From Psychrobacter sp. GP33 (GTDB lineage: Bacteria > Pseudomonadota > Gammaproteobacteria > Pseudomonadales > Moraxellaceae), in contig NZ_JACGYX010000004.1 of the NCBI RefSeq assembly GCF_014119005.1, positions 186,001 to 250,000 on the forward strand: DNA of 64,000 nucleotides. The letters run 5' to 3'. Below, one piece after another: positions 5,638-15,726 of this stretch. How positions within the stretch are numbered: position 1 is the first letter of the stretch; each line of letters begins with the position of its first letter. The notes under the pieces are model-generated. The model worked only from the letters and a program-made list of their open reading frames with translations. It was not told the origin of the DNA and did not search any database. The translations under genes and the position numbers were made by a program.

Positions 5638-6486
5638 TTAAGGTACAGGTGTATTGTCCAATGAGAGATTGCCTTGCCCATTACCTTCATCATTACCGTT
5701 AGGATTGTTATTAGCATTATTGCCATTGGGATTATTATTTGCGTTTTTTCCTGAATCTGTGTGGCGGTTTAAAGGAATGGCTTGTGGTGCTAACGCCCAT
5801 TGCCAAGTTATCGGTAGCTCTTGGTAAGTAAAACCAAGCCCGATACCTTTGGGAAGTAGCATTGGTGGTTTGTTAGCTGCACTATTTGCTTGACCTGATA
5901 CTGCGTTATTATTTTGATTGTCACTGTTTTTATTAGGAAAGGTTGCACTAACCTCTGGCAAAAAAGCTTGCCAGCGACCTGCTGTGACGCCTGCTAACAC
6001 GACGCTATCAAGACTAATACCATCTGCGCCGCCCTGAATACTGACATATTGGCGACGAATCAACTTTTCATCGGTGAAAATATAGGCAACACGCTGCAAA
6101 CTTGGACTGGTTTTATAGCGCGGATCGGGATCGGCAAAGCGAATAAAGCTCAGCTGTTCACCATCTAAACGTATAAAGGGTTCAGGAATAACAGCAGCAG
6201 TATTGGGGTTAGCACTGTTATTGGGGCTACTATTATTGGCATTGTTATTTAAGTTGTTGCTAATACTATCTTGCGCCATAAGTGAATGATAAGACACGAT
6301 TTGCCCCATATCTTGCTGGATTTGCAAATAAGCATATTGTAAGACCGCCAGCTGATCGGCATGAAATTGCGCCCGTTCGCGCGCACGATTGACACTATCA
6401 AATACTTGCCAACCAGCAACGGCAAGCACAGAAAATATCGCCATGGCTACCATCAGCTCAAGTAAAGTAAAGCCGCGCTGCTGCAT
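5638..6486 (-). CDS. gspJ: Type II secretion minor pseudopilin GspJ
   Basis: A 282-residue pseudopilin, part of the tip complex with GspI and GspK. The N-terminus MQQRG/FTLLELMVAMAIFSV has the prepilin peptidase site after Gly5 and Glu at +5. The ATG abuts the gspI stop codon (TAAATG), so translation is probably coupled. It is unusual in carrying three Asn-rich tracts (about residues 77-95, 185-205 and 247-273) on a family backbone; the last contains two exact copies of the nonapeptide NANNNPNGN. Compared with typical GspJ proteins of about 200 residues, these insertions explain most of the extra length. Confidence 0.93.
   Translation of the reverse strand: MQQRGFTLLELMVAMAIFSVLAVAGWQVFDSVNRARERAQFHADQLAVLQYAYLQIQQDMGQIVSYHSLMAQDSISNNLNNNANNSSPNNSANPNTAAVIPEPFIRLDGEQLSFIRFADPDPRYKTSPSLQRVAYIFTDEKLIRRQYVSIQGGADGISLDSVVLAGVTAGRWQAFLPEVSATFPNKNSDNQNNNAVSGQANSAANKPPMLLPKGIGLGFTYQELPITWQWALAPQAIPLNRHTDSGKNANNNPNGNNANNNPNGNDEGNGQGNLSLDNTPVP
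5692..5745 (-). repeat. Tandem 27-base repeat coding NANNNPNGN twice in GspJ
   Basis: Residues 248-256 and 257-265 of GspJ are identical nonapeptides. Their DNA differs at six of 27 positions, all synonymous. Confidence 0.85.
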
Positions 6487-6984
6487 TTATTGCCCTACCT
6501 TTTGCTCAGAACGACCCATATCCAAACTAGCAACTTCCTGCTTTGCATCACTTAATATTAAATTTATATCGTTAACAACTGGACGCGATTGCCTATCTAT
6601 AATGGGCGCAACGGTTATATTTACCTGTTTTAATGCAGGCGATAACGTGTCAGATAGGGTGGTGGTTACTTGCCAGTCTCGACCTTGTTCATTAATTGTT
6701 TGCACGCGATTGCTAGTCAGCCAAGTGTCTTGGATACGTAAGTCTGCCGCTGCATTTTGTGCGACAAAGTGGGCAAGCGTACGGGTTTTTAGCACATCTA
6801 CTGAGTTTAGATAGGCGCTACTGGCGCGACTAGCAGAAACCGCAACCACTGCTAAAATCGCCAGCGCTACCATCACTTCAATCAAAGTAAAACCTTGCTC
6901 GCGCGATGACATGGATAATGATGGTGGAGATAATAGTAAAGGTAATTTTTTCGGTTTATGCATCTTTTTTAAGGTATCGGACAT
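6487..6984 (-). CDS. gspI: Type II secretion minor pseudopilin GspI
   Basis: A 165-residue pseudopilin with the motif EQG/FTLIEVMVALAILAVVAV; cleavage is expected after Gly31. The leader is about 31 residues and basic (KKMHKPKKLP), much longer than the usual 5-10. An internal ATG at 6912 would shorten it to a typical length but has no clear ribosome binding site. The upstream ATG at 6984 has GGG about 9 bases before it and sits three bases after the gspH stop. I keep the long start at moderate certainty. Confidence 0.9.
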   Translation of the reverse strand: MSDTLKKMHKPKKLPLLLSPPSLSMSSREQGFTLIEVMVALAILAVVAVSASRASSAYLNSVDVLKTRTLAHFVAQNAAADLRIQDTWLTSNRVQTINEQGRDWQVTTTLSDTLSPALKQVNITVAPIIDRQSRPVVNDINLILSDAKQEVASLDMGRSEQKVGQ

Positions 6985-6987
6985 TAC

Positions 6988-7842
6988 TTATTGCCCTTTT
7001 CCAGTAATGATACTGCCATCCGGCATTATCGTAATCACCTCACCTACCAAGCGCGATTGGTGCCGCACCTCGATGGTAACCGGCGCCGCTTGCCCGGTGC
7101 CAAACCATAACACTTGCGGCACCAATTGCCCTGTAAACCACGGCTGTAGCACTTGCGCATCTGACGCGCTATTCATACCATTACTACCACTCGACGCCTC
7201 TAAACTTTGGATATTTAAGCTAACACCAGCTGGCAGTTCAGGTAAGGTAACATCCATTTCCCGCTCCCAGCTTGGTGTGGGTATTTGCGCGGTAGCTGTG
7301 TTCGAAAATTCTGTTAGCCCTGATATATCAGTAGATAGCTCCATCGCATTTTTAGGCACACTATCCTTATTATCACCTGTCTGAATCGGTGTTTGATAAT
7401 GCGCATAAGGATTAGACAACGTAATAATGACTGGTACGACTTGACCTTGCTTGTCGGCTTGCAAGCTCAGTCCCATCGGTTGCATACGCTCAGCAGATAG
7501 CAGACGAACGTAATTCAAAGAGTCGGTAAGATGCTCATAAAAAGCATGGTTTTTACGCGATTCACTGCTACCAACGGATAAACTTATCATGCCAGCAAAA
7601 ATAGAGATGATGACCACCACCACCACGATTTCAACCAAAGTAAAACCTGACTCTGAGCCAGATATCATTGATGGGCGCATTGGTAATGCTATTGATGATG
7701 GACGTATTAGCGAGGGAAAATTATGGACGTTAGGCGTTACAACAACAGGAGAGAATATTAAGGATGGATAGGAGAAAAATTGAGGCGTATAAGCTGGCAA
7801 AATAGGTGCGAAGCTGAACTGACGTTGGACAGTGAGCGGCAT
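6988..7842 (-). CDS. gspH: Type II secretion minor pseudopilin GspH
   Basis: First gene of the gspHIJK operon, 284 residues. The pseudopilin signature SGSESG/FTLVEIVVVVVIIS places the cleavage site after Gly66, an exceptionally long leader. Alternative starts at 7680 (M55) or 7668 (M59) would give a normal leader of 8-12 residues. However, the ATG at 7842 has AGGTG seven bases upstream and the shorter starts have no clear ribosome binding site. GspH is the minor pseudopilin thought to link tip to shaft. The rest of the secretion machinery is not in the window. Confidence 0.88.
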   Translation of the reverse strand: MPLTVQRQFSFAPILPAYTPQFFSYPSLIFSPVVVTPNVHNFPSLIRPSSIALPMRPSMISGSESGFTLVEIVVVVVIISIFAGMISLSVGSSESRKNHAFYEHLTDSLNYVRLLSAERMQPMGLSLQADKQGQVVPVIITLSNPYAHYQTPIQTGDNKDSVPKNAMELSTDISGLTEFSNTATAQIPTPSWEREMDVTLPELPAGVSLNIQSLEASSGSNGMNSASDAQVLQPWFTGQLVPQVLWFGTGQAAPVTIEVRHQSRLVGEVITIMPDGSIITGKGQ

Positions 7843-10938: not shown

Positions 10939-11712
10939 ATGTCAAAACTTCGCACCGAAACGGTCACAGAGGTTCATCATTGGAATGACGCCTTATTTAG
11001 CATCAAGACCACACGCGACGATGGCTTACGCTTTCGTAATGGTGAGTTCGCCATGATTGGTATCGTGGTTGATGGTCGCCCATTGCTACGCGCCTACTCG
11101 ATTGCTAGCCCCAATTATGAAGAACATTTAGAATTCTTTTCTATCAAAGTTCAAGATGGCCCATTAACCTCACGCCTCCAGCACATCAAAGTGGGCGATG
11201 AGCTATTAGTGAGCAAAAAACCAACGGGTACTTTGGTATTAGATGACTTACTGCCAGGTAAACACTTATATATGCTCTCAACAGGCACCGGACTTGCGCC
11301 ATTTTTAGCATTAGCACGTGATCCTGAAGTTTACGAGCGCTTTGAAAAAATTATTTTAGTCCATGGCGTACGCTGTGTTGGCGACTTAGCATATCGCGAT
11401 ATGTTCGAGAACGAACTGCCAAACGATGAAATATTTGGCGAGTGGTTCCGTGAAAAATTCATCTATTACCCAACCGTCACCCGTGAAGAATTTCGAAACC
11501 AAGGTCGCGTGACTGACTTAATGAAATCAGGCAAGCTATTTAAAGATATCGGTCTGCCTCCAATTAATAAAGATGACGATCGTGTAATGTTATGCGGTAG
11601 TATGCCATTTAATGCTGAAGTCTCTACAATTTTAGATGACTTTGGGCTGACGGTCTCTCCAAGAATGGGTGTACAAGCAGATTACGCTGTTGAGCGTGCC
11701 TTTGTTGGTTAA
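10939..11712 (+). CDS. fpr: Ferredoxin/flavodoxin-NADP+ reductase
   Basis: A 257-residue FAD enzyme that exchanges electrons between NADPH and ferredoxin or flavodoxin. The FAD-binding RAYSIASPN motif is at about residues 54-62, the NADP-binding GTGLAPFLA near 116-124, and the C-terminus ends in YAVERAFVG, matching the bacterial subclass I Fpr type of Azotobacter and Pseudomonas. An ACGGGGA ribosome binding site precedes the ATG. Its product could feed redox enzymes nearby, including the flavin-linked mes operon, but that link is only positional. Confidence 0.93.
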   Translation: MSKLRTETVTEVHHWNDALFSIKTTRDDGLRFRNGEFAMIGIVVDGRPLLRAYSIASPNYEEHLEFFSIKVQDGPLTSRLQHIKVGDELLVSKKPTGTLVLDDLLPGKHLYMLSTGTGLAPFLALARDPEVYERFEKIILVHGVRCVGDLAYRDMFENELPNDEIFGEWFREKFIYYPTVTREEFRNQGRVTDLMKSGKLFKDIGLPPINKDDDRVMLCGSMPFNAEVSTILDDFGLTVSPRMGVQADYAVERAFVG

Positions 11713-11789
11713 CATGACGCTACATCAGTCAGTAATTGCACATTTTATGTCTATTAGATAATTTAATCGCTAATTGTGATAAATAATTC

Positions 11790-11817
11790 TTGACGGTTAA
11801 AAATAGGCTGCTATAAT
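11790..11817 (+). promoter_or_regulatory. Sigma-70 promoter of tRNA-Leu with a 9-base inverted repeat around the -10 box
   Basis: TTGACG (11790-11795), 16-base spacer, perfect TATAAT (11812-11817). The -10 is enclosed in ATAGGCTGC / GCAGCCTAT (11803-11811 and 11820-11828). The start of transcription would be near 11824, about 66 bases before the tRNA. Confidence 0.8.
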
Positions 11818-11889
11818 ACGCAGCCTATACAGTAACTACTGTAGCCCAATTCAATAATGTTTAGCTAAAGTAACATTATTACCTAACAC

Positions 11890-11976
11890 GCCGGTGTGAT
11901 GGAATTGGTAGACATGACGGATTCAAAATCCGTTGCCTTTAAAAGCGTGTCGGTTCGAGTCCGACCACCGGTACCA
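11890..11976 (+). tRNA. tRNA-Leu (anticodon CAA)
   Basis: 87 bases with encoded CCA. The acceptor GCCGGTG pairs with CACCGGT; the D-loop contains GGTAGA; the anticodon stem ACGGA/TCCGT encloses TTCAAAA, giving anticodon CAA for UUG codons. The long variable arm TGCCTTTAAAAGCGT is as expected for a type II tRNA, and the T-arm is GTCGG-TTCGAGT-CCGAC. Confidence 0.97.
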
Positions 11977-11985
11977 CTATACGAA

Positions 11986-12018
11986 ACCCTTATAATCTAT
12001 GGATTGTAAGGGTTTTTT
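11986..12018 (+). terminator. Intrinsic terminator after tRNA-Leu
   Basis: 12-base stem ACCCTTATAATC / GATTGTAAGGGT (one G-T pair), 4-base loop, then six Ts. Confidence 0.9.
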
Positions 12019-12087
12019 ATTGCGACTAATTTTTGCTTTTTAAATTTACTGATGAAAAGTATCAATTTATTTGTTGATGTATGCTAG

Positions 12088-12623
12088 ATTCAATTATTAC
12101 TGCTTGTTTTTGGATACGCTATAAAAGTAAAACTAACTAAAAATTTCGTCGATTCAATAGATTATACTGAAAGTGGAATTGATGTATACCGAGAAAATAT
12201 TAAATCGACCCGTGATTATCGAAGACTGAACATTCTTATAGAATGCGACAATGAAAAGATAAAATTAAACTTCTCAGATTAAAGAAAACGCCACTCATAT
12301 GCTGATTGAAGCATTAAACGACCATCCTTCCCACATGATTAACTATCCAAGTTATAGCATGGCTGTACGCCTAAAACGCTACGATCGTGTCATAGAAAGC
12401 GTATAGATAAAACCATTCGTGCATCGTTGTAAACCCAAAGCCAAGAGATACTCATTAAAAAGTTTAAACGAGAAAAAATACAATTCCCACTAAGTTTCGT
12501 GACGATCAGAAGCGAGCTAATGACTTATTCTATTGTCAGTTCACCGCTCATCGCCCTAATCCTTGCGAAGCAATGCTTCTTACAGTCGCTAATTTTATCT
12601 ATATCGAGACGATTATCAGCTAA
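12088..12623 (+). pseudogene. Decayed coding remnants downstream of tRNA-Leu
   Basis: Three successive open stretches in different frames, none with a convincing start and ribosome binding site: 12088-12282, 12299-12406 and 12468-12623. Their translations look protein-like (for example INYPSYSMAVRLKRYDRVIE in the second and KFRDDQKRANDLFYCQF in the third). Stop codons and frame changes break them up. I do not recognise the parent protein or proteins. The position directly behind a tRNA gene suits remnants of an integrated element, but no integrase remnant or duplicated tRNA end was found. Could also be chance open frames. Confidence 0.35.
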
Positions 12624-12847
12624 GTTTGTATAGTCAAATATTTTACGGTCTTAATTCTTCTTTAAGTAAGTCGTCAAAATATCCCATATCCATTTTTTCC
12701 ATACAACAAATCCTCATACATGAATTTTACTCATCTTTAATTCAATTTAAGTCGTTTTTATTCATGGTTTGGTTCAGGTATGATTCATCTCATACAGACA
12801 TTTGGTTTTCTCTCAGACAATGAGAATAGATTAAGGGTGCAATCACC
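12624..12847 (+). promoter_or_regulatory. Upstream region of the mesX operon with two inverted repeats
   Basis: Contains GTATGA-ttcatc-TCATAC at 12778-12795, overlapping a possible -10 TATGAT, and TCTCA-gacaa-TGAGA at 12811-12825, both within 70 bases of the mesX start. They are candidate operator sites for a methionine regulator; the regulator cannot be named. A 65-codon frame here (12626-12823) has no coding character. Confidence 0.4.
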
Positions 12848-13867
12848 ATGAGTAATGAATTCAGCTGTTCAATTTCGAGCATTCGTTTTGATGAAAACTA
12901 TCAGCCTGCAGACAGCACACGTCTGACGACTAACTTTGCAAATTTAGCTCGTGGCGAGCATCGCGAAGAGAACTTATGCAAAACGTTAAGAATGATCAAT
13001 AATCGTTTTAACGCGTTGGCGCATTGGGACAATCTAACAGCAGACCGTTATTCTGTAGAAATTGATATTATTTCTGCAAACATGGATATTGAAGGTAATG
13101 GTAATACCTTCCCTGTAATCGAGATGTTGCAAACCACGATTGTTGACCACAAAGATAACACGCGTATTAACGGTATGATTGGCAACAGTTTCTCGTCTTA
13201 TGTGCGTGATTATGACTTTAGTGTCGTCCTGTTAGAACATTATAATAAAAATCCAACATCAAAATCACCTGCGCATTTTGGCGATTTGCATGGCAAACTA
13301 TTTCAATACTTATTAAATTCAGAAGCATATCAAGCCAACTTTAATAAAAAGCCTGTGATTTGCCTCAGTGTGTCAACCAGTAAAACCTACCACCGTACTG
13401 CCAATCAGCATCCGGTATTAGGGGTTGAATACAGACAAGATGACTATTCGTTAACTGATGAGTATTTCCACAAAATGGGCTTAACCGTTCGCTACTTTAT
13501 GCCTGTCGGTAGTGTTGCGCCATTCGCGTTCTATTTTGCGGGTGACTTGCTGAGTGATTACACGGATCTTGAGCTGATCAGTGCGATTAGTACGATGGAG
13601 ACGTTCCAAAAGATTTATCGTCCCGAGATTTACAATGCCAATTCTACGGCTGCTCAAGTGTATCAACCCAGCTTGAAGTACCAAGATTATTCACTGACGC
13701 AAGTAGTATACGACCGTGAAGAGCGCAGCCAGATGGCGGTAACTCAAGGTAAATTTACTGAAGAACAGTTTATTAAGCCTTACCAAGCCATTCTTGAGCA
13801 ATGGGCGGCAAGCTATTCTGTGAAAAAAAGTGACGTTAAAAAAACAAGCTGCCTAAGTTACTTATAG
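12848..13867 (+). CDS. mesX: MesX (DUF1852), partner protein of core methionine synthase MesD
   Basis: A 339-residue DUF1852 protein: it opens SCSISSIRFDENYQPADSTR and contains NLCKTLRMINNRFNALAHWD and RYSVEIDIISANMDIEGNG. Published genetics on aerobic bacteria (the MesD work of Price and colleagues, cited from memory) showed that this family is required by MesD for methionine synthesis that needs oxygen but neither methyl-folate nor cobalamin. Its biochemical role is not established as far as I know. No signal peptide, so cytoplasmic. First gene of a three-gene operon, 55 bases before mesD. Confidence 0.9.
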   Translation: MSNEFSCSISSIRFDENYQPADSTRLTTNFANLARGEHREENLCKTLRMINNRFNALAHWDNLTADRYSVEIDIISANMDIEGNGNTFPVIEMLQTTIVDHKDNTRINGMIGNSFSSYVRDYDFSVVLLEHYNKNPTSKSPAHFGDLHGKLFQYLLNSEAYQANFNKKPVICLSVSTSKTYHRTANQHPVLGVEYRQDDYSLTDEYFHKMGLTVRYFMPVGSVAPFAFYFAGDLLSDYTDLELISAISTMETFQKIYRPEIYNANSTAAQVYQPSLKYQDYSLTQVVYDREERSQMAVTQGKFTEEQFIKPYQAILEQWAASYSVKKSDVKKTSCLSYL

Positions 13868-13922
13868 TCATACTATAAAAATATAAGAAAAGTCTAATAT
13901 AAAATATAAAAAGTGAATAAAT

Positions 13923-14951
13923 ATGAAACTATTATTACCCACGTCAACCGCTGGCAGCTTACCAAAACCATCTTGGCTTGCAGAACCTGAGACCCTGTGG
14001 TCACCTTGGAAACTAGAAGGTGACGAATTGATTGAAGCCAAACAAGATGCACTACGTTTATCATTGCAAGAACAAGTGCATGAAGGGCTGGATATTGTCA
14101 GTGATGGCGAGCAGACCCGTCAGCATTTTGTAACCACCTTTATTGAGCACCTTGATGGTGTCGATTTTAAACAGCGTGAAACCGTGCGCATTCGCAATCG
14201 CTATGATGCGAGTGTGCCGTCAGTCGTTGGTGCGGTAAGCCGTCAAAAACCAGTGTTCGTTGATGATGCGAAGTTTTTACGTCAGCAAACCAATCAACCG
14301 ATCAAATGGGCGCTGCCAGGTCCGATGACGATGATTGACACGCTATATGATGGTCATTATAAAAGCCGTGAAAAATTGGCTTGGGAATTTGCTAAAATTC
14401 TAAATCAAGAAGCGCGAGAATTAGAAGCTGCTGGGGTTGATATTATCCAATTTGATGAACCAGCATTTAACGTGTTCTTTGATGATGTGAACGACTGGGG
14501 TATCGCCACGTTAGAGCGCGCTATTGAAGGTCTAAAATGTGAAACGGCTGTGCATATTTGTTATGGCTATGGTATCAAAGCCAATAATGATTGGAAAAAA
14601 ACACTGGGTTCGGAGTGGCGCCAATATGAGCAAGCCTTTCCTAAACTACAACAGTCTAAAATTGATATTATCTCGTTAGAGTGTCAAAATTCACATGTAC
14701 CGATGGATTTGATCGAATTGATTCGCGGTAAAAAAGTGATGATTGGTGCTATTGATGTGGCGACCAACACCATCGAGACTCCTGAAGAAGTGGCAAACAC
14801 GCTACGTAAAGCGCTGCAATTCGTTGATGCTGACAAGCTGTATCCGTCGACCAACTGCGGTATGGCACCCTTGCCTCGCGAAGTAGCACGAGGTAAGCTA
14901 AATGCGTTAAGTGCAGGTGCGGAAATCGTTCGTAAAGAACTGACTGCCTAA
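13923..14951 (+). CDS. mesD: Core (folate-independent) methionine synthase MesD
   Basis: 342 residues, equal to only the C-terminal catalytic half of MetE; the N-terminal folate-binding barrel is absent. The zinc and homocysteine site is intact: His211 and Cys213 (AVHICYGYG), Glu253 (ISLECQNSH) and Cys312 (STNCGMAPL). The N-terminal LPTSTAGSLPKPSWL is typical of MetE-like barrels. The direct DUF1852 neighbour upstream assigns it to the MesD family. It methylates homocysteine from an unidentified donor. 55 bases after mesX, 35 bases before the flavin reductase gene. Confidence 0.9.
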   Translation: MKLLLPTSTAGSLPKPSWLAEPETLWSPWKLEGDELIEAKQDALRLSLQEQVHEGLDIVSDGEQTRQHFVTTFIEHLDGVDFKQRETVRIRNRYDASVPSVVGAVSRQKPVFVDDAKFLRQQTNQPIKWALPGPMTMIDTLYDGHYKSREKLAWEFAKILNQEARELEAAGVDIIQFDEPAFNVFFDDVNDWGIATLERAIEGLKCETAVHICYGYGIKANNDWKKTLGSEWRQYEQAFPKLQQSKIDIISLECQNSHVPMDLIELIRGKKVMIGAIDVATNTIETPEEVANTLRKALQFVDADKLYPSTNCGMAPLPREVARGKLNALSAGAEIVRKELTA

Positions 14952-14986
14952 GCGCCATCTAAAGACAAGCGATAGTCAAATTTGGG

Positions 14987-15487
14987 ATGCAAGAGATGAT
15001 TGAAGCAAGCGATTTTAAAAATGGCATGGCGTTGTTAACCACTGCAGTTAGTGTGATCACCACAAAAGGTGCCTCGGGTGCTCATGGATTTACGGCATCT
15101 GCGGTATGTAGCGTCACCGATACACCGCCAACTTTGCTTGTTTGCATGAATCATGCGTCACGTTCACATGCCCATTTTATTGATAATAAAACTTTAAGTG
15201 TCAATGTGTTAGGCGCACAGCACGAAACCATATCCAATGCCTTTGCCTCCAAATTAGGTTCAGAGGAACGGTTTGAGCAGGGCTCTTGGGCTGAACTAGC
15301 AACGGGTGCCCCTGTATTAGAAGATGCACTGGTCAGTTTTGATTGTGAGATTGAGGACATTCAGCAAGTTGGCACGCACAGTATTTTTATGTGCCGTGTT
15401 GTGGCCATCAAACAAAGTGAACAAAGTGAAAGTTTAATTTATTTTAATCGGGCTTATCATCATGTTGCTCAAGTAGAAATCGCTTAA
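14987..15487 (+). CDS. Flavin reductase (HpaC/RutF-like) in the mes operon
   Basis: A 166-residue FMN-binding split-barrel protein of the flavin reductase-like family: GMALLTTAVSVITTKG near the start, HGFTASAVCSVTDTPPTLLV in the flavin pocket, LSVNVLGAQHETISNAFASK, and the C-terminal AYHHV. Such proteins use NAD(P)H to reduce FMN or FAD for an oxygenase. Located 35 bases after mesD with no terminator between them, it may supply reduced flavin to the oxygen-dependent MesX/MesD reaction. That role is inference. Either ATG at 14987 or 14996 could be the start. Confidence 0.85.
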   Translation: MQEMIEASDFKNGMALLTTAVSVITTKGASGAHGFTASAVCSVTDTPPTLLVCMNHASRSHAHFIDNKTLSVNVLGAQHETISNAFASKLGSEERFEQGSWAELATGAPVLEDALVSFDCEIEDIQQVGTHSIFMCRVVAIKQSEQSESLIYFNRAYHHVAQVEIA

Positions 15488-15644
15488 TTTAGGTGTCTAA
15501 TTATTAGCAATAATAATTATCTTATTATGAAAAAATATTATGCACATCATAATGCGTACTAATTCATATTTTAATCAAAATATCAGACAAAATAATAAAA
15601 TTAATAGGATAGAACAGTTCTGACCATCGTTAATACTTATAGCA

Positions 15645-15672
15645 AAAAAGCCTCCCTATTCGGAGGCTTTTT
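15645..15672 (+). terminator. Intrinsic terminator after the mes operon
   Basis: AAAAAGCCTCC / GGAGGCTTTTT stem with a 6-base loop; A and T runs on both sides make it usable from both strands. Confidence 0.85.
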
Positions 15673-15726
15673 CGTATCTACTATTTTTTATCAAAAATGC
15701 ATTCTATCAATAAACTTTAACCCAAT

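Follow-up and report, generated by a model that had tools for sequence, protein, structure and literature searches.

The mesX-mesD-flavin reductase operon of Psychrobacter sp. GP33 is genuine and intact and adds a complete example to the known MesX/MesD system. Its attached flavin reductase appears to act as a replaceable helper and not to be a missing part. The main interpretation of this operon, including the flavin-based guess for MesX, is already in print, as documented in the available parts of Price et al. 2021 (PMC7857596), the study in which MesD and MesX were named. Two points are new, both inferred from sequence: the reductases adjoining mesX in separate lineages are unrelated kinds and not one inherited gene, and Psychrobacter features a MetR-type box together with a MetR-like gene.

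Operon structure and role in the genome

The operon was analyzed within a window of 64,000 nucleotides, representing the whole stretch of DNA under study, from a genome assembly of 2.87 Mb in 29 contigs. The following features were recognized:

12720..12734, forward strand: MetR-type operator ATGAA-N5-TTCAT with one mismatch (ATGAATTTTACTCAT), a palindrome conserved in Psychrobacter loci
12779..12784, forward strand: candidate -10 element TATGAT without a good -35 element, located in a partly conserved block of the Psychrobacter upstream alignment
12848..13867, forward strand: mesX (PF08908, formerly DUF1852), encoding the MesD partner protein, a putative oxygenase of 339 amino acids; Pfam 582 bits
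13923..14951, forward strand: mesD, encoding a core methionine synthase of 342 amino acids with the zinc/homocysteine domain only
14987..15487, forward strand: RutF/HpaC-like flavin reductase (PF01613) of 166 amino acids; Pfam 140 bits, sole PF01613 match of the genome
15642..15675, forward strand: hairpin with U tract at the operon end, a probable terminator; -17.7 kcal/mol, z -5.3

In agreement with the first-pass annotation, the three reading frames are open, follow each other on the same strand in the order mesX, mesD and reductase gene, and are separated by gaps of 55 and 35 bases. No stable hairpin was found in these two gaps (folding z -0.64 and -0.17), and the main stem of the strong hairpin at 15642-15675 starts at 15645, the position given in the first-pass annotation. 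The pattern scanner did not list this hairpin and flagged only one weak hairpin inside mesD. Similarly, the candidate -10 element was not picked up by a scan for the sigma-70 consensus. A tRNA gene is located at 11890-11973, approximately 0.9 kb upstream of the operon.

The MesD protein contains Meth_synt_2 (PF01717; 128.7 bits) as its only Pfam domain, covering the catalytic half, was named ‘methionine synthase’ by NCBIfam (PRK09121; 705 bits compared to a cut-off of 392) and matched the solved MesD structure PDB 3rpd with 666 bits. Its residues His211, Cys213, Glu253 and Cys312 align with H641, C643, E665 and C726 of Escherichia coli MetE and, together with Ser12, Glu63 and Asp178, are invariant in 121 of 121 aligned MesD sequences (from loci L056 to L179, counting those in which over 320 residues aligned; L001-L055 and shorter pieces were excluded). 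The earlier statements that MesD keeps the zinc/homocysteine residues and lacks the folate-binding half were hence both upheld. The catalytic domain without an N-terminal folate domain, the zinc/homocysteine residues and MesX encoded 55 bases upstream are those of the MesD class. Furthermore, mesD was located beside mesX in all 44 fetched loci (43 from the phylum-wide sample and G427), three of which (L143, L150, L154) encode a divergent MesD of 55-58% identity.

MesX encoded in the window is 77-89% identical to MesX from other genomes of the genus, and the 28 closest named MesX loci all belong to Psychrobacter. Across 72 MesX sequences, 94 residues are invariant. Two AlphaFold models of MesX are confident, and their comparison with solved structures yielded no convincing fold match; a relationship to known flavoenzymes, sought by sequence and by structure, was not recognized. 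In genome G082, a second, broken mesX was observed in two fragments, one with an in-frame stop (G082:C1:2175963-2176446).

In the whole-genome search, MetE was not found, because MesD is the only PF01717 match, and genes for MetH and MetF were identified. Therefore, MesX/MesD represents the only recognized B12-independent route from homocysteine to methionine in this genome. According to the available parts of PMC7857596, MesX and MesD convert homocysteine to methionine in a reaction requiring oxygen, with MetF being dispensable; both proteins are needed, and the pair is sufficient when E. coli lacks metE or metF: there, mesX and mesD of Sphingomonas koreensis, without the reductase, rescue either deletion in air only. 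The same parts infer substrate oxidation by MesX, predict a flavin cofactor in the conclusions and mention that the gene pair is often located near a putative flavin reductase (ACIAD3522, Ga0059261_2931). The current Pfam name of PF08908 is ‘Putative oxygenase MesX’. In the accessible sections of a study from 2026 on Acinetobacter baumannii (PMC12892962), the DUF1852 gene is among those most lowered by methylcobalamin (log2 -8.3), and a flavin reductase gene two locus tags away responds with log2 -2.5; these two genes presumably form the same operon type as described here. Moreover, PMC13059711 reports an apparent protection of two bacteria against nitrous oxide by MesD homologs.

Flavin reductases adjoining mesX and mesD

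MesX was detected in 44 of 398 genomes sampled phylum-wide, including the window genome, and in G427 originating from a search among relatives, resulting in 45 genomes. A PF01613 gene adjoins mesXD in three of them, namely the window genome, G074 of the same genus and G316, and two further genomes (G228, G342) showed no PF01613 match at E<=0.001. PF03358 is present in all 45 genomes and part of the mesX operon in at least four: it precedes mesX in the congeneric G094, G302 and G393 and separates mesX from mesD in G082. Screening of the fetched loci with an MsuE-type profile, which could miss other PF03358 kinds and covered a few short loci, revealed no further case of PF03358. In total, a reductase of either family adjoins mesXD in at least seven of the 45 genomes, and none was seen in the other 38 among the matches listed. 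A scan of 66 same-strand neighbouring reading frames from 57 loci plus the window reductase assigned six of 67 to PF01613 and three of 67 to PF03358.

The 80 named loci over-represent relatives of the window. Among them, mesD is followed by the PF01613 reductase gene in 27 of 29 loci from Psychrobacter, both exceptions being cut contigs, and in 29 of 30 from Acinetobacter, the exception being L099 with mesX alone. Among the other named loci, it follows mesD in four of 21 (L107, L124, L128, L135), and PF03358 is located upstream in three of 21 (L125, L126, L131). The reductase is thus a constant feature of the operon in Moraxellaceae but not across the MesX/MesD family, and for this reason the suggestion that the third gene encodes the missing component fails in its strict form. 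Co-occurrence of all three genes, proposed as a check of that suggestion, is not conserved across the sampled genomes, as a PF01613 gene adjoins mesXD in three of 45; moreover, E. coli rescue requires no more than mesX and mesD, as reported in the available text of PMC7857596.

Further observations concern individual loci. Acinetobacter sp. S54 harbours, in addition to L099, where neither mesD nor a reductase gene was found nearby, a complete set of the three genes (L100). The mobilizable Acinetobacter lwoffii plasmid pALWVS1.1 carries a complete mesX-mesD-flavin reductase set (L182, 6001-8671), preceded upstream by queH and a gene annotated as methylenetetrahydrofolate reductase C-terminal domain protein. 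In the plasmid collection, MesX matched 209 records, some of which are chromosome-sized. Neighbour clustering of 57 loci placed related genes near mesXD in 12 of them (L171:10824-11741 and 11 other loci), mostly on the opposite strand; the one member scanned is a TauE/SafE sulfite exporter.

The adjacent reductases differ in kind. The window reductase is RutF-like, with 207 bits falling below the RutF cut-off of 254.75 (TIGR03615), as does the adjacent reductase of Rhizobium with 202 bits, whereas that of G316 is HsaB-like (180 bits, cut-off 230) and scored 72 bits for RutF. PF03358 neighbours scored above the MsuE cut-off in six of seven upstream or inserted reading frames scanned; the seventh (L131) was the wrong reading frame and gave no match, the true L131 reductase being seen by our own profile only. 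In G082, the MsuE-type FMN reductase gene between mesX and mesD (L143:10282-10968, forward strand) accompanies the gene for a divergent, 58% identical MesD. Seven adjacent cases, falling into four lineages after collapsing by hand, were observed in the 45 genomes, compared to 0.20 expected from the number of reductase genes per genome and genome sizes (P ~6e-5 for at least four). This estimate is rough, since it followed inspection of the neighbours and assumes random positions.

The first-pass annotation had proposed that the flavin reductase feeds reduced flavin to MesX. The recurrence of unrelated reductases beside mesX makes such a link plausible, although it is not new; a role of flavin in the MesX/MesD system is still likely on the basis of these gene neighbourhoods. 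E. coli, the rescue host, encodes both PF01613 and PF03358 proteins, which served as search controls, and therefore the sufficiency of mesX and mesD in this host is compatible with a need for some reductase. The recurring exchangeable reductases thus narrow the published question of the methyl source of MesD, in that MesX would need reduced flavin, not a particular protein.

MetR-type control and cobalamin riboswitches

In the available parts of Leyn et al. 2014 (PMC4239095), ‘PF08908-metE2’ is assigned to the MetR regulon for between five and seven taxonomic groups, with ATGAA-N5-TTCAT as the printed operator consensus. This operator is present upstream of mesX in the window with one mismatch. 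Searching the 250 bases upstream of mesX, and allowing at most one mismatch, the palindrome was found at -113 to -144 in all 28 named loci from Psychrobacter, 22 of them with an exact match, compared to a shuffle mean of 0.97; L112 was excluded from this count because its mesX match was short. The corresponding counts, referring to related and hence not independent sequences, were 18 of 30 for Acinetobacter (shuffle mean 1.63), 32 of 43 for other genera of the genome sample (0.95) and 16 of 21 for other named loci (0.74). Accordingly, no box with at most one mismatch was found in 12 of the 30 Acinetobacter upstream regions, and three of the 18 boxes (L085, L088, L102) are located more than 220 bases upstream instead of at approximately 100-120. 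Outside the Moraxellaceae, the distance to mesX ranges from approximately 104 to 249 bases. Considering the window alone, TGAA-N5-TTCA, the 13-base core, is no commoner than chance predicts, with 29 occurrences at up to one mismatch compared to 39.7 expected.

Screening of the genome with E. coli MetR identified a protein of 46% identity (265 bits), the next LysR protein reaching 64 bits, and a MetR-like protein (45-47% identity) was present in six of six genomes of the genus tested. Its best NCBIfam family is MetR with 284 bits, which is below the cut-off of 382, followed by the next family with 93 bits. Furthermore, a one-mismatch MetR box is located approximately 35 bases upstream of the MetR-like gene itself (L195:5460). 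These findings suggest that Psychrobacter possesses a MetR, calling into question the statement in the consulted parts of PMC4239095, referring to four Moraxellaceae genomes, that MetR occurs in all gamma- and beta-lineages except Moraxellaceae. Box and MetR-like gene together would plausibly explain how Moraxellaceae could shut down mesX in response to B12 in the absence of a riboswitch. MetR-like genes (>150 bits) were located near mesX in seven of 44 fetched and five of 80 named loci, none of the latter five in Moraxellaceae.

No cobalamin riboswitch (RF00174) was detected before mesX in the window, nor at a relaxed threshold on 11700-12900. In an Rfam scan of 36 sources, two genomes being given twice and most of the first 20 holding only about 1.5 kb on each side, such a riboswitch was found by mesX in five of 34 distinct loci. 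In G371 and G277 it immediately precedes mesX in the same orientation (at L177:10409-10600, reverse strand, and L176:8731-8929, forward strand), and it is divergent in Rhizobium (L124), Shinella (L184) and Acetobacter (L183). At L124, the divergent riboswitch (7469-7678, reverse strand) lies upstream of a MetR-like gene (6168-7055, reverse strand), suggesting that B12 may control the MetR-like regulator there. The gene behind the divergent riboswitch of Acetobacter (L183:4313-5059, reverse strand) lies beside transposase genes; its product looks Rieske-like, judging by eye from a motif.

Proposed mechanism, alternatives and comparison with known systems

We consider it rather probable that the operon constitutes a B12- and folate-independent methionine route that is switched by MetR, in which MesX uses O2 and reduced flavin and the reductase is replaceable. 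When B12 is lacking, MetH would stall, homocysteine would rise and MetR would turn on the operon. MesX would then use oxygen and reduced flavin on a common metabolite to generate an activated methyl group, which MesD would hand to zinc-bound homocysteine. Reduced flavin would be provided by the flavin reductase, which other cellular reductases could replace. In the presence of B12, MetH would draw down homocysteine, MetR would lose its co-activator and mesX expression would fall. More tentatively, and less likely than not, MesX may be the first member of a new flavin-dependent oxygenase fold, in which O2 and reduced flavin from whichever reductase is available turn a common central metabolite into an activated methyl donor. 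If true, MesX would supply one-carbon units under aerobic conditions without relying on folate, B12 or S-adenosylmethionine.

Alternatively, MesX could be an oxygenase working without flavin, either metal-dependent or cofactor-free, the reductase being co-regulated for another purpose. This rather unlikely explanation would fit the 38 of 45 genomes in which, among the matches listed, neither reductase family was seen beside mesXD, the lack of a recognizable flavoenzyme relationship, and several His, Glu, Asp and Tyr residues that are invariant and could form a metal or catalytic site; it is at odds with the finding that different flavin reductases have been placed in this operon repeatedly and, as it appears, independently, including the one between mesX and mesD (G082, L143). 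It appears very improbable that the reductase serves MetH, e.g., by flavin or cobalamin reduction reactivating the B12 enzyme, and owes its location to the shared topic of methionine synthesis. The genome indeed encodes MetH, which requires reductive reactivation. However, the reductase gene stands behind mesD in the window, as it does in almost every Moraxellaceae locus seen, and the A. baumannii reductase gene near the DUF1852 gene drops with B12, the opposite of expectation, according to the available data of PMC12892962.

The reductase may also be a bystander, i.e., a lineage trait of Moraxellaceae and some other bacteria without a part in methionine synthesis. Its limited spread (PF01613 beside mesXD in three of 45 genomes), the sufficiency of mesX and mesD in E. 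coli described in the available parts of PMC7857596, and a plasmid copy of Acetobacter ascendens, for which an incomplete gene table lists no reductase, agree with this explanation. It is nevertheless judged improbable in view of the retention of the gene after mesD in Psychrobacter (27/29) and Acinetobacter (29/30), where two of the three exceptions are cut contigs, and in the plasmid copies of A. lwoffii and Shinella.

Compared to known systems, the closest counterparts of the operon are MesD/MesX of Acinetobacter baylyi ADP1 (ACIAD3523/3524, reductase ACIAD3522) and S. koreensis, which share families and conserved residues with the window. The A. baylyi locus (L104) has the same order of mesX, mesD and reductase gene, its MesX is 72% identical, and no difference of kind was found. 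MesD shares with MetE the catalytic-half residues that bind zinc and homocysteine but differs from it by the missing folate-binding half. The small separate reductase beside an oxygen-dependent partner recalls two-component flavin monooxygenases (HpaBC, HsaAB, MsuDE, SsuDE), as do the RutF/HpaC-like reductase of the window and the HsaB-like or MsuE reductases at other mesX loci; in contrast, MesX is not recognizably related to any oxygenase component, and its use of flavin is putative. Finally, the operon shares the operator type before mesX with the MetR regulon member ‘PF08908-metE2’ of PMC4239095, in the available parts of which no MetR ortholog is reported for Moraxellaceae, whereas a MetR-like gene and the box were both found here in Psychrobacter.
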